Shown here: positions 35,697 through 58,524 of the stretch, one piece after another
Position numbering within the stretch: the stretch's first letter is position 1
How the letters are laid out: each line of letters begins with the position of its first letter
Assembly: GCF_014633365.1 (NCBI RefSeq)
Contig: NC_068339.1
Location: 13,911,925 to 13,975,924 of the forward strand
DNA from: Diospyros lotus
Taxonomy: Eukaryota > Streptophyta > Magnoliopsida > Ericales > Ebenaceae
Direction of reading: 5' to 3'
Length of the DNA: 64,000 nucleotides
Translations under genes and position numbers: made by a program
The notes under the pieces: generated by a model
The model's input: the letters and a program-made list of their open reading frames with translations, nothing else
The model's database searches: none
What the model was told of the DNA's origin: nothing

Positions 35697-35700
<4 letters not shown>

Positions 35701-35743
<43 letters not shown>
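35701..35743. repeat. CT microsatellite
   Basis: An uninterrupted CT dinucleotide run lies inside the hAT element between its TATA-like motif and the transposase start. CT-rich leaders are common in plant transcription units. Confidence 0.9.
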
Positions 35744-35747
<4 letters not shown>

Positions 35748-35924
35748 CTCAAGCTATTATTCTCTCAATTTTGTCTCTCATTTAATATTTCAATTTCAAT
35801 TTCTTCAATCTTCTCATTTTGTTATTTATCAATTTATTCAATTATATTGTTAATTATTTATTACTTGTTACTATATTATTTTATCATTATTATATTTTTT
35901 TATTATCATACTTTTTTCAAAAAA

Positions 35925-37949
35925 ATGGCAAGTGAAGGTAGAAATTTTGAAAATGTTGAGTTTGAAACTCAAAATTTTCAAACACAAGAGAGTGAAACTC
36001 AACAAAAGGGAGGTGGAAAAATTTTTACTTCTGATATTTTTAATATTCATTTCAAGAAAACACCAAAAGGAGATGGTAAATTTGATGTATCTTGTAATTA
36101 TTGTAATCAGGTATACAAATTCAAGCAAGGAGGTGGATATGGTACTTTCGCCCGACATTTGCAAACAAAGCACCCGCTCAAGGTTGGATTGAGCCGCGAT
36201 CAAACACAAATATCCGGGTTTGCTACCTCTTCAAACTCTCCTCAATTATTTCATTATAATGAAGCTAATTGTAGGTCTGGTTTAGCTGAAATGGTAGCAA
36301 TTGATCATTTATCTTTTAGTTTTGGTGAAAAAATAGGTTTTACTCGATTTTGTCAAAACTTTGTTAATCCTAGTTTTAAATCAATTCCTAGAAATACTTT
36401 GAAAAGGAATTTGTTAAAATTGTTTAAAAACTCAAAAATTGAATTGATAACATATTTTCAAAACAATAATATTAATGTTTCTATTTGTAGTGATATTTGG
36501 AGTGATCATTGGCAAACTCATTCATATATGGGTATTACTTGTCATTGGGTTGATGAAAATTATGTTTTACAAAAAAGAATTCTTGCATATCGATGTTTCG
36601 ATGAAAGTCATAATGCTGAAAATATTTGTAGATTAATTCAACAAATTTTACAAGAATATAGATTAGTTAATAGAATTTTTTCAATTTCTTTTGATAATGC
36701 ATCGGCTAATATTGCTTCTATTAATGAATTGAAAAGAATTTGCCAACCAAATTTTGGTGGAAGATTTTTTCATGTTAGATGTGCATGCCATGTTTTAAAT
36801 TTATGTGTTCAAGATGGTATTAAGTCACTTAATTCTTATTTAGATCCAATTAGAAATGTTATTTCTTATATTTGGGTACACCCTCGAACTGCAAAAGCAT
36901 GGGCACATTTTTGCACCTCCAATGGTCAAACCCCAAAACGTTTTTCAAAAGATGTCCCTACTCGTTGGAACTCAACTTTTAAATTACTTAATCAATCTTT
37001 TGAATATAAAGATTTATTGTGTTCTTTTGCAGCAAATTATATTCCACAATATCCTATTTTTCCAACTATGTAGAATGTTTGTAGTTCAATTTTGAATATT
37101 TTACGAATTTTTAATGATGCTACTCATACACTTAGTAGTGTTTATAAACCAACTTCACATCAATTTTTAATAGAAGCAATGAATGTGGCCGGTGTATTAA
37201 TGGAAGGAATTAATGTTGAAGAAATTTGTCATGCTGTTTTAGAAATGAGAGAAAAATGGTTACGTTATTATCAATTTATTCCTGAAATTTTTCTTGTTAC
37301 TATGGTATTTGATCCTAGGTGTAAATTTGATGGTTTCATTGAGTGTTTGTCTAACTATTATTCGTTGTTAGGATTAGAAAATAATGAAGAAATTGATGTG
37401 AATATTATAATTTCTAAGGTTAGAACTTTATGCAATCAATTATATGAAGCATATGTTATTGCTCCTAGTAGTGAAGAATCATTTCCATCCATGGCTTCGC
37501 ATTCCTCTTCCTCCCAACCAATGAAATGGGGTCATAAATTTTTAGATCAAAGGAGGAAAAAACCTAGATCGAGCTCACATTCGGAGTTCGAAACTTATCT
37601 AACCACAGTTTTTGAGTTTGGTGATGATACAGGTTTAAATTTTGAAATTTTGGAGTGGTGGAAAAGGCACAAGGAGACATTTCCAACTCTTGCAATTATT
37701 GCAAGTCAACTTCTTGCAGTTCCAGCTTCAACTGTAGCCGTTGAACAAACATTCAGTAGTGGAGGCAACATTTTGGACGAAAGAAGATCAAAATTGGCTC
37801 CAGAATCATTGGAAGCTCAAGTTTGCCTCGATGATTGGGAAAGAGCTAACATGCGACGTCAAGAAGAACTTATCCATTCATCATCATCTGACGAATGGGT
37901 TAATGATGGTTCAACAACGGCGACTTCCGACTCCAATGAAGATGCGTAG
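35925..37949 (+). pseudogene. hAT transposase (BED-finger, RICESLEEPER-like) with one in-frame stop
   Basis: The frame starts MASEGRNFENVEF and would encode about 674 residues, the usual size of plant BED-hAT transposases. A BED zinc finger is visible near residues 55-85 (CNYCNQVY, then HLQTKH). The RNase-H-like catalytic region follows (SICSDIWSDHWQTHSYMGI, SFDNASANI, RCACHVLNLCVQDG). The C-terminal dimerisation region reads LAVPASTVAVEQTFSSGGNI. The only defect I see is TAG at 37071-37073 after FPTM. Family sequences usually carry a residue such as Trp there, so a single TGG-to-TAG change is plausible. The next frame resumes NVCSSILNILRIF without a shift. In plants related domesticated genes exist (DAYSLEEPER, RICESLEEPER), but here TIRs and TSD are intact, so this is a transposon copy. 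Confidence 0.9.
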
Positions 37950-38639
37950 GATCCAAGTCCATATTTTATTTTTTTTCACATTTGTAAAAATTAATTACTT
38001 GTATTACATTTTTGTTGTAATTATTTTTTAATAAAATTAAGTCTAATTCTATTTTTTATTTTTTATTTTTCACATTTGTAAAAATTAATTACTTGTATTA
38101 CATACTTGTTTAGTTGTTTTAATTATTTTTAATGAAATTATTACTTATATTTCTTCAATTTTTAGTAGTGTTTTTTTATTAAAAATATGGTTGAGAATAT
38201 TTATATTTACAATTACATTTAACAATTAAAAATCGAAACCAAACCGAACCGAACAACGGAACAAGGACCAAAATTGAATACAACAATATTTAAAAAAAAT
38301 TAAAAAAATTCGGTTTGAACCGGAACCAGAACCGTTGACCGAACCGGCTCAAACCGTTGACCGAACCGGTCCAAACCGTTGATCGAACCGGCACGAACCG
38401 GAACCAAACCGTCCCAAACCGCCCTTGGGAGGTTCGGTTCAGGTTCAAAGATTTCTTGAACCGGAACCGGCGGTTCATGAACCGGAACCGGCGGTTCATG
38501 AACCGTGGCCATGTCTAGATTCAATAGGACCGGATTGGACCGAAATTAAAATTTTAATTAAAAATTTTAGATCAAAGATTAAATTATACAAGGGCAACAC
38601 TGGACCAAGACAGTCCAATCCACTCCTATTAAATTTAGT

Positions 38640-39264
38640 GGAAATTGTAAAAATTAAGCCCCTCCTAAATACAAAATTCGTTTTTATCCTTTTTTTTACA
38701 AAAAAATATTTTTACCCCCTCCAAACAAATAGTTGCAAAAAATAGTCACTTTACCACTTTAAACCATAACCTTTGACTTTTCAACAATCAACTTTTATTA
38801 AAAATTAAGAATAAAGACAAAGATAGTGAATTCCCAAACTACCCTCAATACAAAAAAAAATAAAAGGGTTAAATTTCTATTTAACCCCCACAACAAACCC
38901 ATAAACTTCCACCTCTTTTTAATTATTAAATATATATGTATTATTACATATAAATAAAATTAATTAACTAATAATAATTAAAAAAATTAAATATATATGT
39001 ATTATTAAATATATAATTGAAAAATTGATATTCAATGATTATTATTTAATTTTTAAATTGTAATAATAATTGCAAATCATAATTATAATAATAAATTTTC
39101 AACTATTAAATTATTATTATTTTCTAGTAATTATTTTTTTTTAATTATTATTTTTTTAATATTTTAATAACTGGTTCGGTTTCGAACACATGTTCGGTTC
39201 CCCCTAAAAAAATAATTTACTACTAAATACATTTTTCTAATAATTATTATTTTTTAAATTTTTA
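38640..39264. repeat. Left arm of a giant inverted structure
   Basis: Read inverted, this arm pairs with 55380-56188. Matching landmarks include GGAAATTGTAAAAATTAAGCC against the inverted GTAAATTGCAAAAAATAACC, the CCCCCTCCAAACAAATAG block, the GACTTTTCAA block and the TCAACTATTAAATTATTATT block. Ends of this type (GGTAAATTG..., followed by CCCCTCC and T-rich runs) resemble plant Mutator-like TIRs. I found no target duplication at its outer edge, so the exact boundary is approximate. Confidence 0.6.
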
Positions 39265-39979
39265 ATGCTAATGGAACACACTAATTCGAAAAAAATAAAA
39301 AATAATTAAAAATTTTCATTTTTGAGTTTTGTGGACCACAAAACCCGATGGCGAACTTTGTGGCCCACAATGCCTGATTTTTTTTTTTTTTTTTTTGCAA
39401 TGAGATATTTTCAAAGTTGCCCAATAATAGTATCAAAAAATAAATTATTGTTAAGAAATTACACTTTTATTCTTGAGTAAGTTTATTACCATAGCATTAT
39501 CTTTGTTTTATCCAATATTAGTTAGAACAATTGATTATGTATTGGTTGTGTTGATAGTGGATGGACATTCTCACACAAAGTGAAAGATAATGATGTTTGT
39601 TGTGATAAATACATTCAATTAACCCAATAAACGTAAAAAGACATCATTTTAGTGCTAATGGAACACACTAATTTGAAGAAAAAATCAAGAAAATTTTAAA
39701 AATTCATTTTAGGGTTTTGGGGGCCACAAAGTCCGATGGGACAAAGCCCGATCAGGCTTCGTCCACCACAAGGCCCGATGGGAAACTTTGTGGGTCATAA
39801 AGCCCGATGGGAGACTTTATGGGCAACAAAGCCCGATTTTTTTTTTTTTTTTTTTTTTTGCAATGGGATTTTTTTAAGTTGCCCACTAGTAGTCTAAAAA
39901 ATAAATTATTGTTAAGAAATTACACTTTTATTCTTGAGTAAGTTTATTATCGTAGCATTATTTTTGTTTTGTCCAATAT

Positions 39980-40668
39980 TGTCGACGTTCAATTTCGGCC
40001 AACCGTGATTCATTTTGGGCCGCAGTGAGTCAATCCAAAAATACCCAGAAGAAAGGAAACCCCCCCCCCCCCCAAAAAAAATTCCAAGCGTGTACACCAG
40101 AATCTTTACGTGGTTCGGCCAGAACAATGCCTAGTCCACGACCGCAGTCTGATTATTCTCTCAGAGCGGCGGTATCTGATTATTCCTCCTGTCCTTGCCC
40201 CTCATGGTCTCTTTGACTCTCATTTATACTGAGGGGCTTTTACAATTTAGATAATATATAAAAATACAGTGATTGTATAATGGGGGACAAACAGTTCTTA
40301 TCGCCTTCACAAGACCGGGAGTGGGATCCTCATTACGAGGGGCATGGGCTGTTACAGATAAAGTGATCGAACCCTACCTCTGACTTCTCAGCAGCTTTGC
40401 CACTCATGCGAGCTGGAGGTTTTAGGACAGCGACCTGGATGGACCAGCGATCTGGAGGATATTTCAGGAGCTCGTTAGTCGATTGCTTGGAGCTCGTTGG
40501 GGGATTACCGGGAGCTCGCCATATGCTCGCTTTACGAGTTCCGGATCTTTGGTGGAGGCTGGACTTTCCTTGACGAGGTCGTCCGGGCCTTCTTGGCCTT
40601 GGGTGATTGGGCCGGTTTATCGGACCGAGTCTGGCCCATGCGGGGTGATGCGGGAAATACATATAACA
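39980..40668. mobile_element. Solo LTR inserted in array A, 689 bp
   Basis: The segment starts TGTCGACGTTC and ends CATATAACA, so it has TG...CA ends. The 5-bp duplication AATAT flanks it exactly (39975-39979 and 40669-40673). Removing it and one AATAT restores normal unit spacing (1155 becomes 461). No internal retrotransposon sequence remains, as after recombination between two LTRs. A C/A homopolymer junction is near 40061-40080. Confidence 0.85.
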
Positions 40669-41330
40669 AATATTAACAAGAACAATTGATCATGTATTGG
40701 TGTTGCTAATAGTGGATGGACATTCTCACACAAATTGAAAGATAATGATGTTTGTTGTGACATATACATTCAATTAACCCAATAAACGTAAAAAGACATC
40801 ATTTTAATGCTAATGGAACACACTAATTTAAAGAAAAAAAATTAAATTTTTTTTTAAAAAAATCACTTTCGGGCATTGTGGGCCACAAAGCCCGATGGGA
40901 CAAAGCCCGAATGGGCTTCGTGGACCACAAGGCCCGATGGGGGACTTTGTGGGTCACAAAGCCCGATGAGAGACTTATTGGGCCACAAAGCCTGGTTCTT
41001 TCTTCTTTTTTTTTGCAATGTGATTTTTTTAAATTGCCCGCTAATAGTCTCAAAAATAAATTATTGTTAAGAAATTATACTTTTATTATTGAGTAAGTTT
41101 ATTATCGTAGCATTATATTTGTTTTGTCCAATATTAACTAGAATAATTGATCATGTATTGGTGTTGTTGATAGTGGATGGACATTCTCACACAAAGTGAA
41201 AAATAATGATGTTTGTTGTGATATATACATTTAATTAACCCAATAAACTTAAAAAGACATCATTTTAATGCTAATGGAACACACTAATTTGAAAAAAAAA
41301 AATCAAGAAGATTTTAAAAAAATTATTTTC

Positions 41331-41353
41331 GGGCTTTGTGGGCCACAAAGCCC
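41331..41353. other. Perfect palindrome in an array A core (example)
   Basis: The arms GGGCTTTGTGG and CCACAAAGCCC are perfect inverted repeats separated by a single G. Next to it lies the 16-bp perfect palindrome AAGCCCGATCGGGCTT (about 41347-41362). Equivalent copies occur in most array A units, and a slightly changed version with GGGG at the centre occurs in array B units. Confidence 0.9.
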
Positions 41354-43386
41354 GATCGGGCTTCATGGACCACAAGGCCCGATGGGAGACTTTGTGGGTC
41401 ACAAAGCCCGATGAGAGACTTTGTGGGCCACAAAGCTCCTTTTTTTTTTTTTTTTGCAATGAGATTTTTTTAAGTTGCCCACTAGTAGTCTCAAAAAATA
41501 AATTATCGTTAAGAAATTACACTTTTATTCTTGAATAAGTTTATTATCGTAGCATTATATTTGTTTTGTCTAATATTAGCTAGAACAATTGATCATGTAT
41601 TGGTTGTATTGATAATGGATGGACATTCTCACACAAAGTGAAAGATAATAATATTTGTTGTGATATATACATTCAATTAACCCAATAAACGTAAAAAGAC
41701 ATCATTTTAATACTAATGGAACACACTAATTTGAAAAATAAATCAAGAAAATTTTTAAAAATTATTTTTCGGATTTATGGGCCACAAAGCCCGATGGGAC
41801 AAAGCCCGATCGGGCTTCATGTACCACAAGGCCCGATGGGGGACTTTGTGGGTCACAAAGCCCGATGAGAGACTTTGTGGGCCACAAAGCCGGATTTTTT
41901 TTTTTTTTTTTTTTTTTGCAATGAGATTTTTTTAATTTGCCCACTAATTGTCTCAAAAAATAAATTATTGTTAAGAAATTACACTTTTATTCTTGAGTAA
42001 GTTTATTATCGTAGCATTATATTTGTTTTGTTTAATATTAGCTAGAACAATTGATCATGTATTGGTGTTGTTGATAGTGGATGGACATTCTCACACAAAT
42101 TGAAAGATAATGATGTTTGTTGTGATATATACATTCAATTAACCCAATAAACGTAAAAAGACATCATTTTAATACTAATGGAACACACTAATTTGAAAAA
42201 AAAATCAAAAAAATTTAAAAAAATTATTTTCGGGCATTGTGCACCACAAAGCCCGATGGGACAAAGCCCAAACGGGCTTCATGGACCACAAGGCCCGATT
42301 GGGGACTTTGTGGGTCACAAAGCCCGATGAGAGACTTATTGGGCCACAAAGTCGGATTTTTTTTTTTTTTTTTTTGCAATGGGATTTTTTTAAGTTGCCC
42401 ACTAGTAGTCTCAAAAAATAAATTATTATTAAGAAATTACACTTTTATCATTGAGTAAGTTTATTATCGTAACATTATATTTGTTTTATCCAATATTAGC
42501 TAGAATAATTGATCATGTATTGGTGTTGTTGATAGTGGATGGACATTCTCACACAAAATGAAAGATAATGATGTTTGTTGTGATATATACATTTAATTAA
42601 CCCAATAAACGTAAAAAGACATCATTTTAATACTAATGGAACACACTAATTTGAAAAAAAAATCAAGAAGATTTAAAAAAAATTATTTTCGGGCTTTGTG
42701 AGCCACAAAGCCCGATGGGACAAAGCCCGATCGGGCTTCGTGGACCACAAGGCCCGATGGGGGACTTTGTGGGTCACAAAGCCCGATGAGAGACTTTGTG
42801 GGCCACAAAGCTCCTTTTTTTTTTTTTTTTTGCAATGAGATTTTTTTAAGTTGCCCACTAGTAGTCTCAAAAAATAAATTATTGTTAAGAAATTACACTT
42901 TTATTCTTGAATAAGTTTATTATCGTAGCATTATATTTGTTTTGTCTAATATTAGCTAGAACAATTGATCATGTATTGGTTGTATTAATAATGAATGGAC
43001 ATTCTCACACAAAGTGAAAGATTATAATATTTGTTGTGATATATACATTCAATTAACCCAATAAACGTAAAAAGACATCATTTTAATACTAATGGAATAC
43101 ACTAATTTGAAAAATAAATCAAGAAAATTTTAAAAAATTATTTTCAGGATTTATGGGCCACAAAGCCCGATGGGACAAAGCTCGATCGGGCTTCATGTAC
43201 CACAAGGCCCGATGGGGGACTTTGTGGGTCACGAAGCCCGATGAGAGACTTTGTGGGCCACAAAGCCCTATTTTTTTTTTTTTTTTTTGCAATGAGATTT
43301 TTTTAATTTGCCCACTATTAGTTTCAAAAAATAAATTATTGTTAAGAAATTACACTTTTATTCTTGAGTAAGTTTATTATCGTAAC

Positions 43387-44240
43387 CAAGATTGTTAAAA
43401 TCGGGATTTTAAGTGGGATCGACAAAGGGTCCATAAAATCGTATCGTAAAATGGAATCGTAAAATCGTAAGATTTTAGAGATAATTAAAAATACCCTTTA
43501 ATTTTTGTAAATATATGTTTATAATAACATAATTTTGTAGAAAATGAATTAATATCATTTAATAACCTAATTATTCCTTATTATAATTCAAAAGATGATA
43601 TTTCCAAAATATAGCTCAAAAACTAGCAGGTTGGTATAAGCAATTTAAAGGCAAAATATAGGTAATTTAAAGGTAAAATATAGCTTAAAATTCTTTAGAG
43701 GATGCTTCCAACGTCTTCCATTAGATTTAGATTACAATTTTTTTCTTAATTTAACATTGATTAAATCAAGTAATATCCCGATTTGGAGTTGGGTGGTCCA
43801 TTAATTAATTACTTGTTTGTCTTGATTTACTTATGCAATCAATATTAGATCAAGTAAAAATTATAATTTAAATCAAATAAATTGGAACTTATGCAATTAA
43901 TGTTAGATGCTATGTGACATTGGAACTTATGCAATCAATGTTAAATCAAGTTCCAATTTAGAGACAAAATATAACAATTCATTGCATAAGTTCCAATGTC
44001 AGATGCTATGTGACATTGAGACGTTGGAAGCATCCTCTAAATTACAACTTAAATCAATGGAGGTCTTTGAATCGTAAAATCGTTTGGGGATCCTTGAAGC
44101 GTAAAATCGTAAAATCGTACATGTAAAATTGAGATTTTATAGGATTTTATCCCAAATTGGATTTTACATGGGATTTGAATCGTTTGGGGGTCTTCGAATC
44201 GTAAAATCATACGCATAAAATCGGGATTTTAACAACAATG
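43387..44240. mobile_element. hAT-type MITE inserted in array A, 854 bp
   Basis: The left end CAAGATTGTTAAAATCGGG and the inverted right end CATTGTTGTTAAAATCCCG are near-matching TIRs. The exact 8-bp duplication ATCGTAAC is at 43379-43386 and 44241-44248. Removal restores the unit spacing (1319 becomes 457). Subterminal TCGTAAAATCGTA words repeat at both ends. There is no coding region. Confidence 0.85.
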
Positions 44241-46918
44241 ATCGTAACATTATATTTGTTTTGTCCAATATTAGTTAAAACAATTGATCATGTATTGGTT
44301 GTGTTGATAGTGAATTGACATAATCACACAAAGTGAAAGATAATAATATTTGTTGTGATATATACATTCAATTAACCTAATAAACATAAAAAGACATCAT
44401 TTTAATACTAATGGAACATACTAATTTGAAAAAAAATCAAGAAAATTTGAAAAAAATATTTTCGGGCTTTGTGGGCCACAAAGCCCGATGGGACAAAGCC
44501 CGATCGGGCTTCGTGGACCACAAGGCCCGATGGGGGACTTTGTGGGTCACAAAGCCCGATGAGAGACTTTGTGGGCTACAAAGCCCGATTTTTTTTTTTT
44601 TGCTTTTTTTTTTTTTTTTTTTTTTTTGCAATGAGATTTTTTTAAGTTGCCCACTACTAGTCTCAAAAAATAAATTATTGTTAAGAAATTACACTTTTAT
44701 TCTTGAGTAAGTTTATTATCGTAGCATTATATTTGTTTTGTTTAATATTAGCTAGAACAATTGATCATGTATTGGTGTTGTTGATAGTGGATGGACATTC
44801 TCACACAAATTGAAAGATATTGATGTTTGTTGTGATATATACATTCAATTAATCCAATAAACGTAAAAAGACATCATTTTAATCCTAATGGAACACACTA
44901 ATTTGAAAAAAAAAATCAAAAAAATTTAAAAAAATATATTTTCAGGCATTATGGGCCACAAAGCCCGATGGGACAAAGCCCGAACGGGCTTCGTAGACCA
45001 CAAGGCCCGATGGGGGACTTTGTGGGTCAAAAAGCCCGATGAGAGACTTATTGGGCCACAAAGCCCGGTTTTTTTTTTTTTTTTTTTTTTTTTGCAATGA
45101 GATTTTTTTAAGTTTTCCACTAGTAGTCTCAAAAAATAAATTATTGTCAAGAAATTATACTTTTATTATTGAGTAAGTTTATTATCGTAGCATTATATTT
45201 GTTTTGTCCAATATTAACTAGAATAATTGATCATGTATTAGTGTTGTTGATAGTGGATGGACATTCTCACACAAATTGAAAGATAATGATGTTTGTTGTG
45301 ATATATACATTTAATTAACCCAATAAACTTAAAAAGACATCATTTTAATGCTAATGGAACACACTAATTTGAAAAAAAAGTCAAAAAGATTTAAAAAAAA
45401 TTATTTTCAGGCTTTGTGGGCCACAAAGCCCAATGGGACAAAGCTCGATCGAGCTTCGTGGACCACAAGGCCCAATGGGGGACTTTGTGAGTCACAAAGC
45501 CCGATGAGAGACTTTGTGGGTCACAAAGCCCGATTTTTTTTTTCTTTTTTTTTTCAATGAGATTTTTTTAAGTTGCCCACTTGTAGTATCAAAAAATAAA
45601 TTATTGTTAAGAAATTACACTTTTATTCTTGAGTAAGTTTATTATCGTAGCATTATATTTGTTTTGTCCAATATTAGCTAGAACAATTGATCATGTATTG
45701 GTTGTGTTGATTGTGGATGGACATTCTCACACAAAATGAAAGATTATAATGTTTGTTGTGATATATACATTCAATTAACCCAATAAACGTAAAAAGACAT
45801 CATTTTAATTCTAATGGAACATGCTAATTTGAAAAATAATTCAAGAGAATTTAAAAAATTTATTTTCGGACTTTGTGTGCCACAAAGCCCGATAGGACAA
45901 AGCCCGATCGGGCTTCATGGACCACAAGGCTCGATAGGGGACTTTGTGGGTCACAAAGCCCGATGGGAAACTTTGTTGGCCGCAAAGCTTGATTTTTTTT
46001 TTTTTTTTTTTTTGCAATGAGATTTTTTTAAGTTGCCCACTAGTAGTCTCAAAAAATAAATTATTGTTAAGAAATTACACTTTTATTCTTGAGTAAGTTT
46101 ATTATCATATCATTATATTTGTTTTGTCCAATATTAGTTAGAACAATTGATCATGTATTAGTTGTGTTGATAATGAATGGACATTCTCACACAAAGTGAA
46201 AGATAATGATGTTTGTTGGGATATATACATTCAATTAATCCAATAAATGTAAAAAGACATCATTTTAGTGCTAATGAAACATACTAATTTGAAGAAAAAA
46301 ATCAAGAAAATGAAAAAAAAAAATTCATTTCGGGCTTTGGGGGCCACAAAGCCAGATGGGGGACTTTGTGGGCCGCAAAACTCGATAGGACAAATTCCGA
46401 TCGGGCTTCGTGAACCACAAGGCCCGATGGGGGACTTTGTGGGTCACAAAACCCGATGAGAGACTTTGTGGGCCATAAAGCCCTTTTTTTTTTTTTTTTT
46501 GCAATGGGATTTTTTTAAGTTGCCCAATAATAATCTGAAAATATAAATTATTGTTAAAAAATTATACTTTTATTCTTGAGTAAGTTTATTATCGTAGCAT
46601 TATATTTGTTTTGTCCAATATTAACTAGAACAATTGATCATGTATTGGTTGTATTCATAGTGGATGGACATTCTCACACAAAGTGAAAGATAATGACTTT
46701 TGTTGTGATATATACATTCAATTAACCCAATAAACATAAAAAGAAATCATTTTACTATTAATGGAACACACTAATTTGAAGAAAAAGTCAAGAAAAATTG
46801 AAAAAAATTATTTTTGGGCTTTGTGGGCTACAAAGCCCGATGGGACAAAGCTCGATCGGGCTTCGTGAACCACAAGGCTCGATGGGGGGGCTTTGTGGCC
46901 CACAAAACCCGATAACAA

Positions 46919-47505
46919 TGTGCAGTTTCGAAAATTTTTTTTGTCACCCAAATTAGTACAGATTTAGAATGATATCTATCAAAATATATTCTATTCACAA
47001 TCACAATAATTCTACACAGCATTAATAAACAATGTGAATACAAAAATTATCTTAAAAAATAAAACAAATACAAATCAAATTAATATCTTGAGATTGAGTG
47101 AAATTATTTGTTGGAGAGAAAAAAATTTGTTGAATGGGACTTCAGTAAGGTCGTTGCGATTGATGAAGAAGATTGAATGACCCAACAAGTAAAAAGATTG
47201 AATATATGAAGAATTACTGAGTTTTGATAGTTTGATGATGGAGAGAAAGAGAGTAACGTGAGTGTTGAAAGAGGAGAGAGAAGAAAAGTTATATGAAAGA
47301 GACAAGGGTATTTTGGTAAAATAGACTAAGGACAATGTGGGTTTTCTATTTTAAAATCTCATTAAGGGTATTTTTGGTATCTTGCATAAAAGTGGCTATA
47401 AAGTGTAATTAGTTTGTTTGAATAGTCAAAAACGTTTTTTTTCTATGAAAAGTACAGAAACGATCTTATACATTTGAATTAGGTCAAATATGAATTCCTC
47501 CCATA
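46919..47505. repeat. Module C, copy 1, between the two arrays
   Basis: About 590 bp starting near ACAATGTGCAGTTTCGAAAA and ending near ATATGAATTCCTCCC. It has a second copy in the same orientation at 56277-56862. Shared landmarks are TCTATCAAAATAT, AATGACCCAACAAG, AAAGAGTAACGTGA, ATATGAAAGAGACAAGGGTA and AATTAGTTTGTTTGA. It separates arrays A and B, exactly where the unit orientation flips. Its T-rich far end resembles Mutator-like TIRs. Confidence 0.8.
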
Positions 47506-50500
47506 AAAAATAATGTATTTTTACATTTTTTGACTTGATTAAAATTATAATTCACAAGAAATAACAATGGAATGATAATAAAACACAACCAATACATAAT
47601 TAAGTGTTCTAACTACTAACAACATTGGATTAAATTGATGTAATGATTACAAAATTTATCTAAAAATAAAAGTATAATTTTTAAACAATAATTTATTTTT
47701 GGGACTATTGAATAACTTAAAAAAATACCATGCCCAATAAAAGAAAAAAAAAGGATAAAAATAACCATTTTAATAAAAAAAATCGGGCATTGTGGGCTCG
47801 AGTTTTGTGGGGCTATGAAACCTGATTTTTTTAATAAAAATGAATTTTTTTAATCTTTTTTTTGGGGGGGGCATGGGATTTTTCAAAGTTACCCAATAAA
47901 AAATAATGTATTTTTACATTTTTTGACTTGATTAAATTTATAATTCATAAGAAATAACAATGGAATGATAATAAAACACAATCAATAAATGATTAAGTGT
48001 TATAACTACTAACAACATTGAATTAAATTGATGTAATGATTATAAAATTTATCCAAAATTAAAAATATAATTTTTAAACACTAATTTATTTTTGGGACTA
48101 TTGAATAACTTGGAAAAATCTCATGGTCAAGAAAAAAAAAGGATAAAAAAAACCATTTTAATAAAAAAAATTAGGCTTTGTGGGACAGCAAAACCCGGCT
48201 CGGGCTTTGTGGGGCCACAAAACCTGATTTTTTAATAAAAATGGATTTTTTGATTTTTTTTTTTTTGCCATGGGATTTTTCGAAGTTACCCAAAAAAAAT
48301 GATCTATTTTTACATTTTTTTGCTTAATTGAATTTATAATTCACAATAAACAAAAATGGAATAATAATAAAACACAACTAATACATGATTAAGTGTTCTA
48401 ACTACTAACAATATTAGATTAAATTGATATAATGATTATAAAATTTACCCAAAAATACAAATATAATTTTTAAACAATAATTTATTTTTGGTACTATTTG
48501 ATAACTTGGAAAAATCCCATGGCCAAGAAAAGAAAAAAAATAACAAAATAACCATTTTAATAAAGAAAATTGGGATTTGTGGGGCCACAAAACCCGGCCA
48601 GGGTTTTGTGGGGCCATGAAACCTGATTTTTTAATAAAAATGGATTTTTTGATTTTTTTTTTTTGGCCATGGGACATTTCAAACTTACCCAATAAAAAAT
48701 AATATATTTTTACCTTTTTTTACTTGATTAAATTTATAATTCACAAGAAATAACAATGGAATGATAATAAAACACAACCAATACATGATTAAATGTTCTA
48801 ACTATTGACAACATTAGGTTAAATTGATGTAATGATTATAAAATTTATTCAAAAATAAAAGTATAATTTTCAAACAATAATTTATTTTGGGGACTATTGA
48901 ATAACTTGGAAAAATCCCATGGCCAAGAAAAAAAAAAAAAAGATAAAAATAAACATTTTAATAAAAAAAATCATGCTTTGTGGGGCCACAAAACCCGGCC
49001 CGAACTTTGTGGGCACAGGTTTTGTGGAGCCATGAAATCTGATTTTTTAATAAAAATAGATTTTTTGATCTTTTTTTTTGGGGGGGGGCCATGGAATTTT
49101 TCAAAGTTACCCAATAAAAAATAATGTATTTTTACATTTTTTGACTTGATTAAATTTATAATTCACAAGAAATAACAATAGAATGATAATAAAATACAAC
49201 CAATACACGATTAAGTGTTCTAACTACTGACAACATTGAATTAAATTGATGTAATGATTATAAAATTTATCCAAAAATAAAAGTATAATTTTTAAACACT
49301 AATTTATTTTTGGGACTATTGAATAACTTGGAAAAATCTCATGGCCAAGAAAAGAAAAAAAAAGGATAAAAATAACCATTTTAATAAAAAAAATCAAGTT
49401 TTGTGGGGCAGCAAAACCCGGCTCGGGCTTTGTGGGGCCACAAAACCTAATTTTTTAATAAAAATGGATTTTTTGATCTTTTTTTTTTTTTTTGGACCAT
49501 GGGATTTTTCGAAATTACCCAATAAAAAATGATATATTTTTAAAATTTTTTGCTTAATTGAATTTATAATTCACAATAAACAACAATGGAATGATAATTA
49601 ATAAAACACAACCAATACATGATTAAGTGTTTTAACTACTAACAATATTGGATTAAATTGATATAATGATTATAAAATTTACCCAAAAATACAAGTATAA
49701 TTTTTAAACAATAATTTATTTTTGGTACTATTGGATAACTTGGAAAAATCCCATGACCAAGAAAAGAAAAAAAAATTCAAAATAACCAATTTAATAAAGA
49801 AAATCGGGCTTTGTGGGGCCACAAAACCCGGCGGGGCCATGAAACCTGATTTTTTAATAAAAATAGATTTTTTGATCTTTTTTTTTTTTTTTTGGCCATG
49901 GGACATTTCAATCTTACCCAATAAAAAATAATGTATTTTTACTTTTTTTTACTTGATTAAATTTATAATTTACAAGAAATAACAATGGAATGATAATAAA
50001 ACACAACCAATACATGATTAAGTGTTCTAACTACTAACAACATTGAATTAAATTAATGTAATGATTATAAAATTTATCCAAAAATAAAAGTATAATTTTT
50101 AAACACTAATTTATTTTTGGGACTATTGAATAACTTGGAAAAATCTCATGGCCAAGAAAATAAAAAAAAAGGATAAAAATAACCATTTTAATAAAAAAAA
50201 AATCAAGTTTTGTGGGGAAGCATAACTCGGCCCGGGCTTTGTGAGGCCACAAAACCTGATTTTTTAATAAAAATGGACTTTTTGATTTTTTTTTTTGGGC
50301 AATGGGATTTTTCAAAGTTACCCAATAAAAAATGATGTATTTTTACATTTTTTTGCTTAACTGAATTTATAATTCACAATAAACAACAATAGGATGATAA
50401 TAAAATACAACCAATACATGATTAAGTGTTCTAACTACTAACAATATTGGATTAAATTGATATAATGATTATAAAATTTACCCAAAAATACAAGTATAAT

Positions 50501-53500
50501 TTTTAAGCAATAATTTATTTTTGGTATTATTGGATAACTTGGAAAAATCCCATGGCCAAGAAAAGAAAAGAAAAGATAAAAATAACCATTTTAATAAAGA
50601 AAATCGGGCTTCGTGGGGCCACAAAACCCAGCCCGGGTTTTGTGGGGCCATGAAACCTGATTTTTTAATAAAAATGGATTTTTTGATCTTTTTTTTTTTG
50701 TGGGCCATGGGATTTTTCAAAGTTACCCAATAAAGAATAAAGTATTTTTACATTTTTTGACTTGATTAAATTTATAATTTACAGGAAATAACAATGGAAT
50801 GATAATAAAACACAACCAATACATGATTAAGTGTTCTAACTGCAAACAACATTGGATTAAATTGATGTAATGATTATCAAATTTATCCAAAATTAAAAGT
50901 ATAATTTTTAAACAAAAATTTATTTTTGGGACTATTTAATAACTTGAAAAAATCTCATGGCCAAGAAAAAAAAAAGATAAAAATAACCATTTTAATAAAA
51001 AAAATCGGGCTTTGTGGAGCCACAAAACCCGGCTCTGGTTTTGTGGGGCCATGAAACCTGAATTTTTAATAAAAATGAATTTTTTGATTTTTTTTTTTTT
51101 GGGCCATGGGATATTTCAATGTTACCCAATAAAGAATAATGTATTTTTACCTTTTTTGACTTGATTAAATTTATAATTCACAAGAAATAACAATGGAATG
51201 ATAATAAAACACAACCAATACATGATTAAGTGTTATAACTACTAACAACATTGGATTAAATTGATGTAATGATTATAAAATTTATCCAAAAATAAAAGTA
51301 TAATTTTTAAACAATAATTTATTTTTGGGGCTATTGAATAAGTTGGAAAAATCTCATGGCCAAGAAAAGAAAAAAAAAGGATAAAAATAACCATTTTAAA
51401 AAAAAAAATCAGGTTTTGTGGGGCAGCAAAACCCGGCTCGGGCTTTGTGGGGCCACAAAACCTGATTTTTTAATAAAAATGGATTTTTTGATCTTTTTTT
51501 TTTTTTGGACCATGGGATTTTTCGAAATTACCCAATAAAAAATGATATATTTTTAAAATTTTTTGCTTAATTGAATTTATAATTCACAATAAACAACAAT
51601 GGAATGATAATTAATAAAACACAACCAATACATGATTAAGTGTTTTAACTACTAACAATATTGGATTAAATTGATATAATGATTATAAAATTTACCCAAA
51701 AATACAAGTATAATTTTTAAACAATAATTTATTTTTGGTACTATTGGATAACTTGGAAAAATCCCATGACCAAGAAAAGAAAAAAAAATTCAAAATAACC
51801 AATTTAATAAAGAAAATCGGGCTTTGTGGGGCCACAAAACCCGGCGGGGCCATGAAACCTGATTTTTTAATAAAAATAGATTTTTTGATCTTTTTTTTTT
51901 TTGGCCATGGGACATTTCAATCTTACCCAATAAAAAATAATGTATTTTTACTTTTTTTTTACTTGATTAAATTTATAATTTACAAGAAATAACAATGGAA
52001 TGATAATAAAACACAACCAATACATGATTAAGTGTTCTAACTACTAACAACATTGAATTAAATTAATGTAATGATTATAAAATTTATCCAAAAATAAAAG
52101 TATAATTTTTAAACACTAATTTATTTTTGGGACTATTGAATAACTTGGAAAAATCGCATGGCCAAGAAAATAAAAAAAAAAAGGATAAAAATAACCATTT
52201 TAATAAAAAAAAAATCAAGTTTTGTGGGGAAGCATAACTCGGCCCGGGCTTTGTGAGGCCACAAAACCTGATTTTTTAATAAAAATGGACTTTTTGATTT
52301 TTTTTTTGGGCAATGGGATTTTTCAAAGTTACCCAATAAAAAATGATGTATTTTTACATTTTTTTGCTTAACTGAATTTATAATTCACAATAAACAACAA
52401 TAGGATGATAATAAAATACAACCAATACATGATTAAGTGTTCTAACTACTAACAATATTGGATTAAATTGATATAATGATTATAAAATTTACCCAAAAAT
52501 ACAAGTATAATTTTTAAGCAATAATTTATTTTTGGTATTATTGGATAACTTGGAAAAATCCCATGGCCAAGAAAAGAAAAGAAAAGATAAAAATAACCAT
52601 TTTAATAAAGAAAATCGGGCTTCGTGGGGCCACAAAACCCAGCCCGGGTTTTGTGGGGCCATGAAACCTGATTTTTTAATAAAAATGGATTTTTTGATCT
52701 TTTTTTTTTGTGGGCCATGGGATTTTTCAAAGTTACCCAATAAAGAATAAAGTATTTTTACATTTTTTGACTTGATTAAATTTATAATTTACAGGAAATA
52801 ACAATGGAATGATAATAAAACACAACCAATACATGATTAAGTGTTCTAACTGCAAACAACATTGGATTAAATTGATGTAATGATTATCAAATTTATCCAA
52901 AATTAAAAGTATAATTTTTAAACAAAAATTTATTTTTGGGACTATTTAATAACTTGAAAAAATCTCATGGCCAAGAAAAAAAAAAGATAAAAATAACCAT
53001 TTTAATAAAAAAAATCGGGCTTTGTGGAGCCACAAAACCCGGCTCTGGTTTTGTGGGGCCATGAAACCTGAATTTTTAATAAAAATGAATTTTTTGATTT
53101 TTTTTTTTTTGGGCCATGGGATATTTCAATGTTACCCAATAAAGAATAATGTATTTTTACCTTTTTTGACTTGATTAAATTTATAATTCACAAGAAATAA
53201 CAATGGAATGATAATAAAACACAACCAATACATGATTAAGTGTTATAACTACTAACAACATTGGATTAAATTGATGTAATGATTATAAAATTTATCCAAA
53301 AATAAAAGTATAATTTTTAAACAATAATTTATTTTTGGGGCTATTGAATAAGTTGGAAAAATCCCATGGCCAAGAAAAGAAAAAAAAAGGATAAAAATAA
53401 CCATTTTAATAAAAAAAATCTGGCTTTGTGGGGCCAAAAAACTCGGCCCGGGTTTTGTGGGGCCATGAAACCTGATTTTTTAATAAAAATAGATTTTTTT

Positions 53501-55379
53501 TTTTTTTTTGACCATGAGATTTTTCAAAGTTACCCAATAAAGAATAATGTATTTTTACTTTTTTTAACTTGATTAAATTTATAATTCACAAGAAATAACG
53601 ATAGAATGATAATAAAACACAACTAATACATGTTTAAGTGTTTTAACTACAAATAACATTGGATTAAATTGATGTAATGATTATCAAATTTATCCAAAAA
53701 TAAAAGTATAATTTTTAAACAAAAATTTATTTTTGGGGCTATTGAATAACTTGAAAAAATCTCATGGCCAAGAAAGAAAAAAAATAATAAGAATAACCAT
53801 TTTAATAAAAAAAATCGGGCTTTGTGGGGCCACAAAACCCGGCTTGGGTTTTGTGGGGCCATGAAACCTGATTTTTTAATAAAAATAGATTTTTTGATTT
53901 TTTTTTTGCCATGGGATATTTCAAAGTTACCCAATAAAGAATAATGTATTTTTACTTTTTTTAACTTGATTAAATTTATAATTCACAAGAAATAACAATG
54001 GAATGATAATAAAACACAACCAATACATGATTAAGTGTTCTAACTACTAACAATATTGGATTAAATTGATGTAATGATTATAAAATTTATCCAAAAATAA
54101 AAGTATAATTTTCAAACAATAATTTATTTTTGGGACTATTGAATAACTTGGAAAAATCGCATGGCCAAGAAAAGAAAAGAAAAGGATAAAAATAACCATT
54201 TTAATAAAAAAAAATCGAGCTTTGTGGGGCCACAAAACCCGGGCTATAAAACTTGATTTTTTAATAAAAATGAATTTTTTGATCTTTTTTTTTGGGGGGG
54301 GGGCATGGGATTTTTCAAAGTTACCCAATAAAGAATAATGTATTTTTACATTTTTTGACTTGATTAAATTTATAATTCACAAGAAATAACAATGGAATGA
54401 TAATAAAACACAACCAATACATGATTAAGTGTTCTAATTACTAACAACATTGGATTAAATTGATGTAATGATTATAAAATTTACCAAAAAATACAAGTAT
54501 AAATTTTAAACAATAATTTATTTTTGGGACAATTGGATAACTTGAAAAAATCCCATGGCCAAGAAAAGAAAAAAAAAGTATCAAAAAATGCATTTTAATA
54601 AAAGAAACTGGGCTTTGTGGGGCCATAAAACTTGATTTTTTAATAAAAATAGATTTTTTGATCTTTTTTTTTTTTTTTGCCATGGAATTTTTTAAAGTTA
54701 CCCAATAAAAAATGATGTCTTTTTACATTTTTTAGCTTGATTGAATTTATAATTCACAATAAACAATAATGGAATGATAATAAAACATACACAATCAATA
54801 CATGTTTAAGTGTTCTACCTACTAACAAAATTGGATTAAATTGATGTAATGAGTATAAAATTTATCCAAAAATATAAGTATAATTTTTAAACATTAATTT
54901 ATTTTAGAGACTGTTGCATAACTTGAAAAAATACCATGGACAAGAAAAGAAAAAAAATAGATCAAAAAAACCATTTTAATAAAAGAAATCAGACTTTGTG
55001 GAGCCACAAAGCCCGACCTGGGTTTTGTGAGGCTACAAAACCTGATTTTTTAATAAAATAGATATTGATCTTTTTTTTTTTTTCGTCCATGGGATTTTTC
55101 AAAGTTATCCAATAAAAAATTATGTATTTTTACATTTTTTGGCTTAATTAAATTTATAATTCACAATAAACAACAATGAAATGATAATAAAACGCAACCA
55201 ATACATGATTAAGTGTTCTAACCACTAATAATATTGGATTAAATTGATATAATGATTATAAAATTTACCCAAAAATTCAAGTATAATTTTTAAATAATAA
55301 TTTATTTTTTGGACTATTGGATAACTTGAAAAAATCCCATGGCTAAGAAAAAAAAAAGATCAAAAAAATTATTTTAATA
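47506..55379. repeat. Tandem array B, about 20 units of about 400 bp, inverted relative to array A
   Basis: The CATGGCCAAG-type word recurs about every 380-422 bp, for example at 48121, 48518, 48918, 49340, 49752, 50148, 50551, 50957, 51355 and so on to 55338. Read inverted, the AT-rich part aligns with array A units: both contain AATAAATTATTGTT, ACTTTTATT and AATCATGTATTGGTTGTG or TGATCATGTATTGGTTGTG in the same order. Each unit also has a GC-rich palindromic core (GGGCTTTGTGGGGCCAC). Arrays A and B are therefore diverged relatives in opposite orientation. Short open frames in this interval are repeat artefacts. Confidence 0.88.
49340..53365. repeat. Recent 2.01-kb (five-unit) segmental duplication within array B
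   Basis: Units starting at 49340, 49752, 50148, 50551 and 50957 recur at 51355, 51765, 52158, 52562 and 52967. The offsets are 2010-2015 bp. Unit-specific variants are shared only between partners: GGGGAAGCATAACTCGG at 50215 and 52227, CTGCAAACAAC near 50842 and 52853, and the short GGCGGGGCC core at 49830 and 51842. The two copies are nearly identical. Confidence 0.9.
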
Positions 55380-56188
55380 ATAATTGAATAACAATTTTTT
55401 AATTATTTGATAATACATATATTTTCAATTATTTTTATTTAATCCATTTTATTTATTGTATATGTAATATTATTACATATATATATTTAATAATAAAAAA
55501 GCGAAGAAAGGGAACGAGCATGGGTTCGAGACTCAACTAGTTATTAAATTAAAAAAAAAAATAATTATTAAAAATAATAGTATTTATTTGAAAATACTAA
55601 TAATTTAATAGTTGAAAATTTATTATTATAATTAAGATTTGTATTTATTATTACAATTAAAAAATAATATAAGAATCATTGAATAACCATTTTTAGTTAT
55701 TTATTTAATAATACATATATATTTAAAACTTTTAATTATTATTATTTAATTAATTTTATTTATATATAACAATAGATATATTTAATAATAAAAAAGAGAT
55801 GGGGGACTCACCGTGGGTTCAAAATCCACCCAGTAATTAAATTATTAAAAAATAAGAATTCTATTGAGAAATAATAATAATATTTTAATAGTTAAAAATT
55901 TATTATTATAATTATGAGGGGTTTCTCGGATTTCTTTATGGGGTAAAATAGAAATTCAATTCTTTTGTTTGTTTTATATTGAGGGTAGTTTGATAATATA
56001 TTGTCTTTATTTTTATTTTTAATTTTTAATTAAAGTAGAGAGATGAAAAGTCAAAGGTTAAGGTGAAAAGTGGTAAAGTGATTATTTTTTGTAACTATTT
56101 GTTTGTAGGGGGTAAAAACGTTTTTTTGTCTAAAAAATGCTAGAAACGAATTTTCTATTTGTGGAGGGGTTATTTTTTGCAATTTACA
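55380..56188. repeat. Right arm of the giant inverted structure
   Basis: This arm is the inverted partner of 38640-39264. Landmarks are GGTAAAGTGATTATTTTTTG, TTTGTTTGTAGGGGGTAAAA and GGAGGGGTTATTTTTTGCAA. It also contains an internal direct repeat (near 55490-55640 and 55790-55915) around CATGGGTTCGAG and CGTGGGTTCAAA. No coding region is seen. Confidence 0.6.
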
Positions 56189-56276
56189 CATTTTTTATTT
56201 GGTAACTTTGAAAAATCTCATTGCCAAAAAAAAAATTGAAAAAATCAATTTTTTTAAAAAAAATCAGGTTTCATGG
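56189..56276. repeat. Fragment of an array unit
   Basis: GGTAACTTTGAAAAATCTCA followed by a poly-A run and ATCAGGTTTCATGGCCC resembles part of an array B unit. It leads straight into the second copy of module C. Confidence 0.6.
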
Positions 56277-56862
56277 CCCGATGACGTTGTGCAGTTTTGA
56301 AAAATTATTTTTTCATGGAAATCAGTATAGATCTGGAATAATATCTATCAAAATATGTTTTATTTACATCCATAAACATACTACACAATATTTATAAGCA
56401 ATGTGATCACAAAACAAAACAAATATAAATAAAATCAATTCTTAGAGATTCAGTCAGTGAAATTGTTTGTTAGAGATAAATAATTTTGTTGAGTGAGATT
56501 TCAATGAGATCGCTGTCATTAATGAAGATTGTTAAATGACCCAACAAGCAAAAAAATTGAATGTATAATGAATGATTGAGTTTGGATGGTTTGACAATGG
56601 AGAGAAAAAGAGTAACGTGAACGTTAGAAGATGAGAGAGAAGAGAAATGCAATATGAAAGAGACAAGGGTATTTTAGTAAATGAAGATAAGGACAATGTG
56701 AGTTTTCTAATTTAAAATCTCATTAAGGATATTTTAGGCATTTCATATAAAAGTGGGTATAGAGTACAATTAGTTTGTTTGATTTGTCAAAAATGTTTTT
56801 TTACTAGAAAGTGGTTAAAAACAATTTTTTAAATTTCTTTTAGGTTATTTATGAATTTCTCT
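56277..56862. repeat. Module C, copy 2
   Basis: This is a diverged direct repeat of 46919-47505 in the same orientation, from ACGTTGTGCAGTTTTGAAAA to ATGAATTTCTCTC. Both copies follow a piece of an array core, so array plus module C seems to have moved or been duplicated as a unit. Confidence 0.8.
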
Positions 56863-58524
56863 CAAGTAAATATTACTGTAAATATAATAGTTACTATATA
56901 AATACTATATTTATTTAATATAAATAGTAATTTATTTAGTCTTCAGTTTAAAATTAGAACTAGACCGAGGGTTGATTTTTTTAATTTTTTAGATTAAAGA
57001 CCAAACTGGAATTATTTAATTTAGGATCAAATAAGATTTTTTGATTCGGTTCAATCTAGTTTTTTAGTCCAAAATTTGAACACCCCATCGAGGAGATGTT
57101 CTCTCTCTTAAACAAATGTCATTTAAACATCATTTAACACCATTTATATTATGTGAATTGAGTTAAATTCATCTTAAATTAAATCTTAACTCTTAAAGTC
57201 AAAACTTTAACAGCATTATACATACTATGTTACTAGGGTTCTTGCATTTAATTAATTCGGTGGGGTAGAGTTCTTCAATTGCAAATGATCGTGTAAATTT
57301 AATTCTGAGACACAATTATTATAAAAAAAAATCAATTAAGGCTCGAGTTTGATTATGATTTAAATTAGAAGAAATATTATTTTTATATTTTAACTATCTT
57401 TGTTACTAAATTTGAAAATATAATAATTTATTTAATTATTTTGAAAGTAGAAAAACTAGTTTTATCACGAATTTTAAAACTTTTAAGAGTTAATAAATTT
57501 TGATAGTGAAAGAGTCAATTTAATAGTCACTTAAAAAAAATACATAGAAATAGAATATATATATATATTCAGTAGATAAATATATTTTTTATACTTTTTA
57601 TGTTAATAGACTAATAATATAATACGCTTTTGTATGATTGTAAAAGTTATTTTTTTATTATAAAAAACAAAATTTTATAACTTCTGCTATGAAAAACATA
57701 AAAACAAAAAAAAAAATAACTTTTTAATTAAATAGCCCTAAGGCTTAAGGAGCCCACAAACAAACCAAAAGGCAAAGTTCAATGGGTGAATTCCACTCAA
57801 ATCCCCAGCGATTATTTTTGCAGAATTTTTGTAATTAAATTTAACATTTAAAGTCAATATAACTTGGTTTTTATTTTTATTTTTTTCAAACTGCCCATTC
57901 TATCTAGGTCACGATTCACGCCATTTATCAAAAACGATATCATTCTTAACATCTCTAATATTAAATAAAAGGTTCCATAAAATTTATCATAATTTTGTAT
58001 AATATCTTTAGTAACTTGACTTAATAAAATTTAAACCACAGAATTTCTATAAAAATAACGTAAAACAAAGAGGTTCAGTGTGAAACTTCTAGCCTATATA
58101 ATTAGATATATCTACTAACAAAAATAAAAAAAACAAAAAACTAATTACTCCATAGAATGGTAGAATCAGAGAAAATTATGTAAAAACCAAAAAAGCTAAT
58201 CGTATAAAACAACTGTCAGTCCCAAGAAGGGCCGTTTACTTGAGCAACTAATTGGCCACACTCAAAACCCAGGGCACTACCCTGGTATACCGTCCTCTAA
58301 GAAACATTTTGCATGCTATGACCCCTGGAGAGTGTACAGGTCAATTAGAAAAAAAAAAAAAAAAACCCTGTTTCCTTCAGAAGTTCCACCTTTATCACAT
58401 GTAACATGGTTGGTAACCAACTGAAGAAAATCGAAGAGAAATTGGGAAGAAAAACAAAATTGCGTACCAAAACAAGTTCCATACATGAGGTCGCAGTCTC
58501 ACAGAGCTACCAAAATCAGGTTCC
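56863..58524. other. AT-rich intergenic DNA and 3' region of eIFiso4G
   Basis: No gene is supported up to the eIFiso4G stop codon at 58525. The last few hundred bases probably include that gene's 3' untranslated region on the minus strand, but I could not place a polyadenylation site. Confidence 0.5.

Follow-up and report, generated by a model that had tools for sequence, protein, structure and literature searches.

An apparent giant foldback structure in Diospyros lotus is a pair of neighbouring MULE-like elements, the second mostly inverted

Is the 17.5-kb inverted structure in this region of the Diospyros lotus genome one giant foldback transposon, or is it composed of smaller elements? 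The window, that is, the whole stretch of 64,000 nucleotides analysed here, contains in succession a left arm, array A, module C, array B and a right arm, and an earlier note had read this layout as a foldback element or a Mutator-like element with tandemly expanded terminal inverted repeats (TIRs). Our analysis partly supports that interpretation. The apparent giant foldback is two neighbouring MULE-like elements of about 9 kb each, hereafter E1 and E2, the second of which is mostly inverted.

Architecture of the locus

Self-BLAST and TRF, run within the window, recovered all reported parts of the layout, and the layout is real. As described before, the arms are inverted repeats: 38638-38888 pairs with 56189-55940 at 83% identity and 38909-39202 with 55802-55510 at 85.5% (self-BLAST), and the arm alignment scored 425, whereas 100 dinucleotide shuffles reached 57 at most. 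The corrected element termini are 38638, 47502, 56189 and 56863. Just past the right edge assigned earlier, at 56277-56880, lies a direct repeat of module C with 77% identity. The resulting features are collected in Table 1.

Table 1. Coordinates of the two elements and their flanks in the window
Feature	Position	Strand	Remarks
Presumed left target-site copy of E1, 9 bp, TTAAATTTA	38629..38637	+	without partner at E1 right end (4/9 between own flanks)
E1, complete non-autonomous MULE-like element, 8865 bp	38638..47502	+	left end GTGGAAATTG..., right end ...ATGAATTCCTCCC
E1 left end (earlier left arm)	38638..39259	+	
E1 array A, units of about 460 bp with 29-bp sub-repeats	39260..46913	+	two younger insertions inside
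E1 right end (module C)	46919..47502	+	recurrent end point of C matches
Inverted E2 segment (array B and E2 left end)	47503..56189	-	
First copy of the rearrangement's 9-bp target duplication, ATAAAAAAT	47503..47511	+	adjoins E1 right terminus
E2 array B, units of about 400 bp	47503..55383	-	each unit partly palindromic
E2 left end (earlier right arm)	55384..56189	-	terminus 56189; about 265 bp are duplicated internally, copies diverged (71%)
Second, inverted copy of the 9-bp target duplication, ATTTTTTAT	56190..56198	-	adjoins E2 left terminus
Remainder of the E2 array unit presumably used as target	56190..56276	+	
E2 right end (C')	56277..56863	+	terminus ...ATGAATTTCTCTC; recurrent end point of C' matches
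E2 right flank, AAGTAAATA	56864..56872	+	without partner at E2 left end (4/9 between own flanks)

Array A has a consensus unit of 459 bp, a mean identity of 91.6% among 10 units and inserts at 39980-40668 and about 43387-44236. The consensus unit of array B is 404 bp, with a mean identity of 90.2% among 19 units, and units B6-B9 and B11-B14 are about 100% alike. These values agree with the unit lengths of about 460 and 400 bp given before. Self-comparison also bore out the opposed orientation of the arrays, as all 13 anchor sites of A lie on the plus strand and all 20 of B are opposite to them. Units of A and reverse-complemented units of B share 64.7% identity. The consensus of A scored 249.5 against the reverse-complemented consensus of B, compared with 43 against B reversed and 142 against the other strand of B, the last value being due to the partly palindromic nature of B. 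Hence, the description of array B as an inverted, diverged relative of array A holds. The arrays also contain a repeated motif, CACAAAGCCCGA. No Pfam domain was detected in the two scanned or listed frames of the structure, one of them at 40333-40689.

The E1 left end and C scored 26, below the shuffle maximum of 36, indicating that E1 has no long well-matched TIRs. Module C was likewise rejected as a copy of an arm: the similarity was weak and confined to the ends, the right arm scoring 42 against C with a shuffle maximum of 38, and the remaining three arm-C comparisons were below their own shuffle maxima.

Copies elsewhere in the genome

A genome-wide search for further copies with the same order of arms and arrays, as proposed in the earlier note, found a different order, and the two halves occur separately. 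The end searches scored 29-40 candidates each, and all counts below refer to the matches listed. Among 18 other near-full-length E1 left ends, 17 have C within 20 kb, and all 17 paired copies outside the window show the order left end, array A, C. Ten E1 copies were read through; every one runs from left end through array A to C and ends there, with no B-oriented anchors behind C in the stretch examined. The commonest end point of C (11 of 39 other matches) is query position 623, which corresponds to 47502 in the window.

E2 behaves similarly. The 39 arm matches outside the window include 27 with C' within 60 kb, 21 of them within 13 kb; six of the 27 pairs span 22-57 kb, and two C5 arms share one C'. 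C' lies on the strand opposite to the arm in all 27 pairs, and among the listed matches only the window has both on the same strand, because 47503-56189 is inverted. Two E2 copies read through consist of the arm (90-92% identity), a run of B units that all point the same way, and C' (92-94%). The commonest end points are query 690 for the arm (56189; 13/39 other matches) and query 674 for C' (56863; 19/39). The opposed array orientation in the window is thus a local inversion. A and B are two families, distinct elsewhere in the genome, and the notion that the arrays evolved apart since the inversion has to be abandoned.

A relative with matching ends is located at C1:48893231-48905197 and is flanked by a 9/9 duplication, TTGAATTAA. 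Its frame of 718 aa, on the minus strand, encodes a MULE transposase (PF10551, E 2.3e-21) with a SWIM domain (2.5e-7), opposite to a plus-strand Ulp1 domain (PF02902) that was detected in this copy (E 4e-11) and in a C16 copy (3.4e-11). Module C is 89% identical to the C end of this relative, the left end matches at 72-74% over 115-130 bp, and C matches the left end of the relative at 83% over 76 bp. The 9-bp duplication, the transposase in the relative, the reversed Ulp1 domain and the lack of long matched TIRs are those of ULP1-MULEs, or KI-MULEs. Judged by these sequence features, E1 and E2 appear to be related but distinct non-autonomous ULP1-MULE derivatives. The Mutator-like part of the earlier reading stands, given the 9-bp duplications and the ends shared with a carrier of MULE transposase, while one foldback element does not: both inverted, subrepeat-bearing ends within one unit and one target duplication were not found.

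Inversion breakpoints and proposed origin

The target duplication sought at the outer edges is not present, as TTAAATTTA (38629-38637) and ATTTTTTAT (56190-56198) differ. Each element also mismatches between its own flanks (4/9 for E1, 4/9 for E2), and the inner flanks of both are missing in the window. The right flank of E1, however, equals the left flank of E2 at 9/9 in inverted orientation. Both inversion breakpoints coincide with transposon termini, namely the right end of E1 and the left end of E2. When the breakpoints were rejoined and one 9-bp copy removed, a continuous B unit was restored with up to 89.9% identity to the array, and the local score was 180, compared with 159 when both copies were kept.

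Target duplications of 9 bp occur in other copies of both families, and 8 or 9 of 9 bp matched at the predicted termini in 24 of 42 non-window pairs. This count leaves out unpaired ends and the C4:14.178 left-end locus, which has no recognisable terminus, and does not take as a pair the C5:33.118 arm, whose C' is common with its neighbour. In the other 18 pairs no good duplication was seen at the precise termini, so that a missing mate by itself shows little. Between different elements outside the window, only 4 of about 3200 left/right comparisons matched at 9/9, and the shared 9-mer was in each case the simple TTTTTAAAA. When 118 flank 9-mers were scanned for further hybrid-end events, 12 cross matches came up, one of them the window pair. 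Eight of these involve TTTTTAAAA; two join copies of a single chromosome whose 20-bp flanks are identical and were rejected as segmental duplicates; and an inverted C10-C5 match was put down to chance, since the flanks of the C10 element itself agree at 8/9.

We consider it highly probable that the locus is the product of reversed-ends (alternative) transposition, in which a Mutator-type transposase used a hybrid pair of ends and a target inside E2. E1 and E2 would once have been adjacent in the same orientation with a spacer between them. The transposase would have paired their facing ends, the right end of E1 and the left end of E2, and the DNA between them would have been cut out. The cut ends would then have inserted at a 9-bp target in the final unit of array B within E2 itself, the right end of E1 joining the side that still carried the E2 left end. 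This joining would invert the 8.7-kb piece from the target to the left end and place a copy of the 9-bp target at each breakpoint, the two copies being inverted relative to each other. In agreement with such an event, the breakpoints comprise one right and one left terminus, and the inverted duplication matches at 9/9 and has the 9-bp length of the superfamily. Against this explanation, the duplicated 9-mer is AT-rich and present in 11 of 19 B units, and a single transposase must accept ends as different as those of the two elements (arms 83-85% identical, C modules 77%).

A history without transposase, in which E1 and E2 inserted independently and the inversion arose later by break repair or inverted-array recombination, seems unlikely. 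Opposed arrays or neighbouring related elements could serve as substrates, and some family copies lack duplications; recombination, however, should leave its breakpoints within matching units and produce no 9-bp inverted duplication, whereas the two observed breakpoints fall precisely on termini. We regard it as very improbable that the assembler flipped a correctly oriented E2. An orientation error is not expected to place inverted copies of 9 bp at two termini, and turning the segment back would still leave both elements without their inner flanks, even though the repeats are long and near-identical (B6-B9 and B11-B14) and the structure is known from assembled sequence. A single 17.5-kb foldback or Mutator-like element with ends made of arm plus subrepeat array, as the inverted arms and opposed arrays had suggested, is scarcely credible, given that no examined copy has this order, that each of the ten E1 and the two E2 copies read through forms a unit of its own, that C' lies on the other strand in 27/27 listed pairs, that the outer flanks differ, and that matches recurrently end at 47502 and 56863.

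MULEs with multiple tandem TIRs carry an extra TIR near the outer TIR and one duplication outside both (PMC3310237). This reading was rejected as well, since the ten E1 and two E2 copies have single ends and the outer flanks in the window mismatch. Nesting of E1 in the E2 array was dismissed because the left flank of E1 is not array sequence.

Relation to known systems and implications

Tetris is reportedly listed among foldback-type elements. KI-MULE (Kaonashi) is described as a non-TIR MULE of high copy number whose ULP runs opposite to mudrA (PMC2528002). The C1 relative resembles it in its MULE transposase, reversed Ulp1 and weak TIRs. The elements described here contain large arrays of 400-460-bp units. 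VANDALs are MULEs with degenerate TIRs whose noncoding tandem repeats, the targets of VANC proteins, change fast and carry a short repeated motif (PMC5735166, PMC10398659); the arrays of E1 and E2 resemble these repeats in being tandem and in bearing such a motif. Tm1 has composite TIRs of tandem repeats, 9-bp duplications and a Mutator-like transposase, and the same paper cites FARE as a foldback element whose transposase has a MULE domain (PMC3169594). Both inverted ends of a single Tm1 element consist of tandem repeats, whereas E1 and E2 have one array each, in one orientation.

Reversed-ends transposition of maize Ac/Ds involves two elements in direct orientation with facing ends, and gives inversions in which junction duplications were looked for (PMC8225341). 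The facing ends and the inversion are similar here, as is the direct pair that we infer. Ac, in contrast, makes 8-bp duplications, with one end family involved, while this locus involves 9 bp, a presumed Mutator-type transposase, two diverged families and a target inside an element. In Arabidopsis met1, a MULE-superfamily pair of VANDAL21 elements underwent end rearrangements with a circular spacer detected by PCR; that case is somatic, the pair is head-to-head, and the reads were too short to resolve all events with their duplications. A VANDAL5-mediated inversion was also suggested on Arabidopsis chromosome 4 (PMC12312487). CitMule of Arrufatina clementine, a MULE with degenerate TIRs, is inverted and has dissimilar 9-bp duplications 2 Mb apart; it involves one element and a deletion, and its authors found no match to alternative transposition (PMC4334395).

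In these sources, alternative transposition is best documented for Ac/Ds, and the MULE reports propose it from somatic reads with incomplete resolution. The window offers a probable chromosomal, base-resolved ULP1-MULE case with two end families, in which every end, breakpoint and target copy is readable. For genome scans, the signature is the right end of one copy and the left end of another with a common 9-bp flank, and giant foldback layouts should be checked for standalone copies before families are named. Tentatively, a Mutator-type transposase may be able to synapse ends that come from two diverged families of non-autonomous elements, and so to perform reversed-ends transposition in germline cells. 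Array-bearing MULEs might then recurrently generate inversions and foldback-looking structures, and some of the foldbacks described so far could be such products.

Layout of the window and copies of its parts

Self-BLAST of the window showed all pieces of what the earlier note had described as one 17.5-kb foldback structure, and its layout of arms, opposed arrays and a module C between the arrays was thus borne out. The arms are inverted repeats with 83-85% identity. Anchor sites lie in one orientation in array A (13/13) and in the other in array B (20/20). The consensus unit is 459 bp in array A and 404 bp in array B, with mean identities of 91.6% (10 units) and 90.2% (19 units) within the arrays, while array A and reverse-complemented array B share a mean identity of 64.7%. 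Absent from the earlier note were two insertions that break array A, and C', a 77% direct repeat of C directly beyond the right arm. A gene nearby has MIF4G and MA3 domains and resembles eudicot eIFiso4G proteins (65% identity, the best among the scored candidates).

Coordinates of features in the window (plain numbers) and elsewhere in the genome (C-numbered sequences)
Feature	Position	Remarks
Array A	39260-46913	self-BLAST
Array B	47503-55383	self-BLAST
C'	56277-56880	
9-mer ATAAAAAAT, two copies	47503-47511 and 56190-56198	mutually inverted in the chromosome
Insert in an array-A unit	39980-40668	resembles a solo LTR: 689 bp, TG...CA ends, AATAT duplicated (5 bp)
Insert	43387-44236	resembles a hAT-type MITE: ~850 bp, ends in short inverted repeats (TTGTTAAAATC...), with ATCGTAAC as 8-bp duplication
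Doubled four-unit block, array B	49612-53225	B6-B9 and B11-B14, ~100% alike; either recent unequal exchange or assembly doubling
hAT transposase piece	35268-37949, + strand	BED finger and hAT dimerisation domain; directly left of E1
hAT transposase piece	17219-19278, + strand	DUF4371 and hAT dimerisation domain
Copia-type polyprotein pieces	29489-32863, 13654-14541, 20043-20537	
AT-rich inverted repeat	6198-7097	self-complementary, 79% over ~900 bp (self-BLAST)
ULP1-MULE relative	C1:48893231-48905197	shares ends with the window elements
Tandem of three C modules	C9:30319176-30321456	spacing ~840 bp
E1/E2-type left end	C16:7166000-7173399, positions 3144-3876 of this stretch, minus strand	~1 kb from a ULP1-MULE

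The 630-Mb plant genome containing the window was then searched, the copy numbers of arms, C and C' being lower bounds. At least 18 further near-full-length copies of the left arm were found, and 10 of the 18 were retrieved, each with 18.5 kb counted from the arm start. All ten consist of a left end, array A (5 to 15 plus-oriented anchor sites) and C, and B-oriented anchors downstream of C were found in none of them. Minus-strand matches to the loose anchor (four errors allowed) numbered 0-2 inside each element. Because plus-oriented anchors occur beyond C in three of the ten copies (2, 2 and 7), further A-type sequence may lie near these three. Among the matches listed, C is found within 20 kb of the left end in 17 of 18 cases, with an identical order in 17/17, and one left end has no C. 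The shared order and the pairing of left end and C delimit a MULE-like element, E1, which spans 38638-47502.

The right arm (the left end of the second MULE-like element, E2, which continues into array B and C') and C' each have at least 39 other copies, with window positions 56189 (13/39 listed) and 56863 (19/39 listed) as the most frequent end points. Among the matches listed, C' lies within 60 kb of 27 of the 39 arms and within 13 kb of 21, and 12 arms have no C' within 60 kb. Arm and C' are on opposite strands in 27/27 pairs, which use 26 distinct C' matches (one C' is common to two arms on C5); the window, with both on the same strand, is the exception. Two copies of E2 were read end to end, one at C4:8.80 Mb (arm 92%, C' 94% identity) and one at C1:39.80 Mb (90% and 92%). 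The arm is followed in both by full-length and partial B units oriented from arm to C', with 83-97% identity to the window consensus. Minus-strand unit matches in these copies are the unit's internal palindrome, and one of the two has a single reverse anchor match when errors are allowed. Two pairs of E2 ends, at C5:33.09/33.12 Mb and C2:3.84/3.90 Mb, have outer flanks that are identical over 20 bp, which suggests a segmental duplication within each locality.

Termini and a proposed reversed-ends transposition

Target duplications settle the termini of the elements. Just outside the predicted ends, 8 or 9 of 9 bases are alike in 24 of the 42 non-window element pairs with both flanks read (E1-type 9/17, E2-type 15/25); the remaining 18 show no such match at zero offset. 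In the window, the two flanks of E1 agree at 4/9 positions, as do those of E2. The right flank of E1 and the left flank of E2 are one and the same 9-mer, ATAAAAAAT, identical at 9/9. Between different non-window elements, 9/9 left/right flank matches were observed in 4 of ~3200 comparisons, all of them TTTTTAAAA. When the breakpoints were rejoined minus one 9-mer, the resulting unit was continuous with array B (identity up to 89.9%), and ATAAAAAAT is present exactly and in the same phase in 11 of 19 B units.

The simplest history for the window is a reversed-ends transposition, presumably driven by a transposase. E1 and E2 would initially have stood in direct orientation. The transposase would have used their facing ends, the right end of E1 and the left end of E2, with loss of the DNA between them, and the paired ends would have entered a target in the last array unit of E2, inverting 47503-56189. 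Such an event explains why the breakpoints fall at two termini, why the 9-bp duplication is in inverted orientation, why the inner flanks are missing from both elements, and why E1 and C' share an orientation.

The description of Ac/Ds reversed-ends reactions in the available text of PMC8225341 fits the window case. VANDAL21, also a MULE, is reported in excerpts of PMC12312487 to undergo somatic rearrangements with spacer circles. For a citrus MULE, the accessible part of PMC4334395 gives dissimilar 9-bp duplications 2 Mb apart, which its authors found not to match alternative transposition. MULEs with multiple TIRs, as far as the available text of Ferguson and Jiang 2012 (PMC3310237) describes them, have a layout unlike that of the window. 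In the titles and abstract openings listed for open-access papers on alternative or reversed-ends transposition of Mutator or Mutator-like elements, no ULP1-MULE was found with a reversed-ends product resolved to the base.

A relative carrying transposase and Ulp1

The relative on C1 was reached via more diverged copies of C. Its left end, GTGGAAATGG, is of the same kind as the arms (72-74% over 115-130 bp), its C is 89% and its array-A-like units are 77-81% identical, and a 9/9 duplication, TTGAATTAA, flanks it. A minus-strand frame of 718 aa contains SWIM as well as the transposase domain of MULEs (E 2.3e-21), and a plus-strand frame contains an Ulp1 protease domain (E 4e-11), which is also present in a copy on C16 (E 3.4e-11). 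KI-MULEs, a ULP1-containing type, are described in the available text of PMC2528002 with reverse-oriented ULP and without TIRs, and the C1 relative resembles them in having ULP reverse-oriented to the transposase. As the C16 left end lies so near a ULP1-MULE, such close neighbours exist elsewhere too.

The arrays have the motif CACAAAGCCCGA in common. With up to two mismatches allowed, 5.4 kb of array A hold 72 copies, 7.9 kb of array B hold 41, and the 45.8 kb of the window beyond E1 and E2 hold a single one; the C1 relative has 23 in 2.2 kb of array and 46 in the remaining 9.8 kb. The VANDAL anti-silencing protein targets fast-changing noncoding repeats, according to the available text of PMC5735166 and PMC10398659, and by analogy a similar role for the array motif is only a guess.

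The shared ends, the transposase and the Ulp1 domain of the C1 relative make the window elements non-autonomous relatives of a ULP1-MULE, and the C1 relative is a candidate source of their enzyme.
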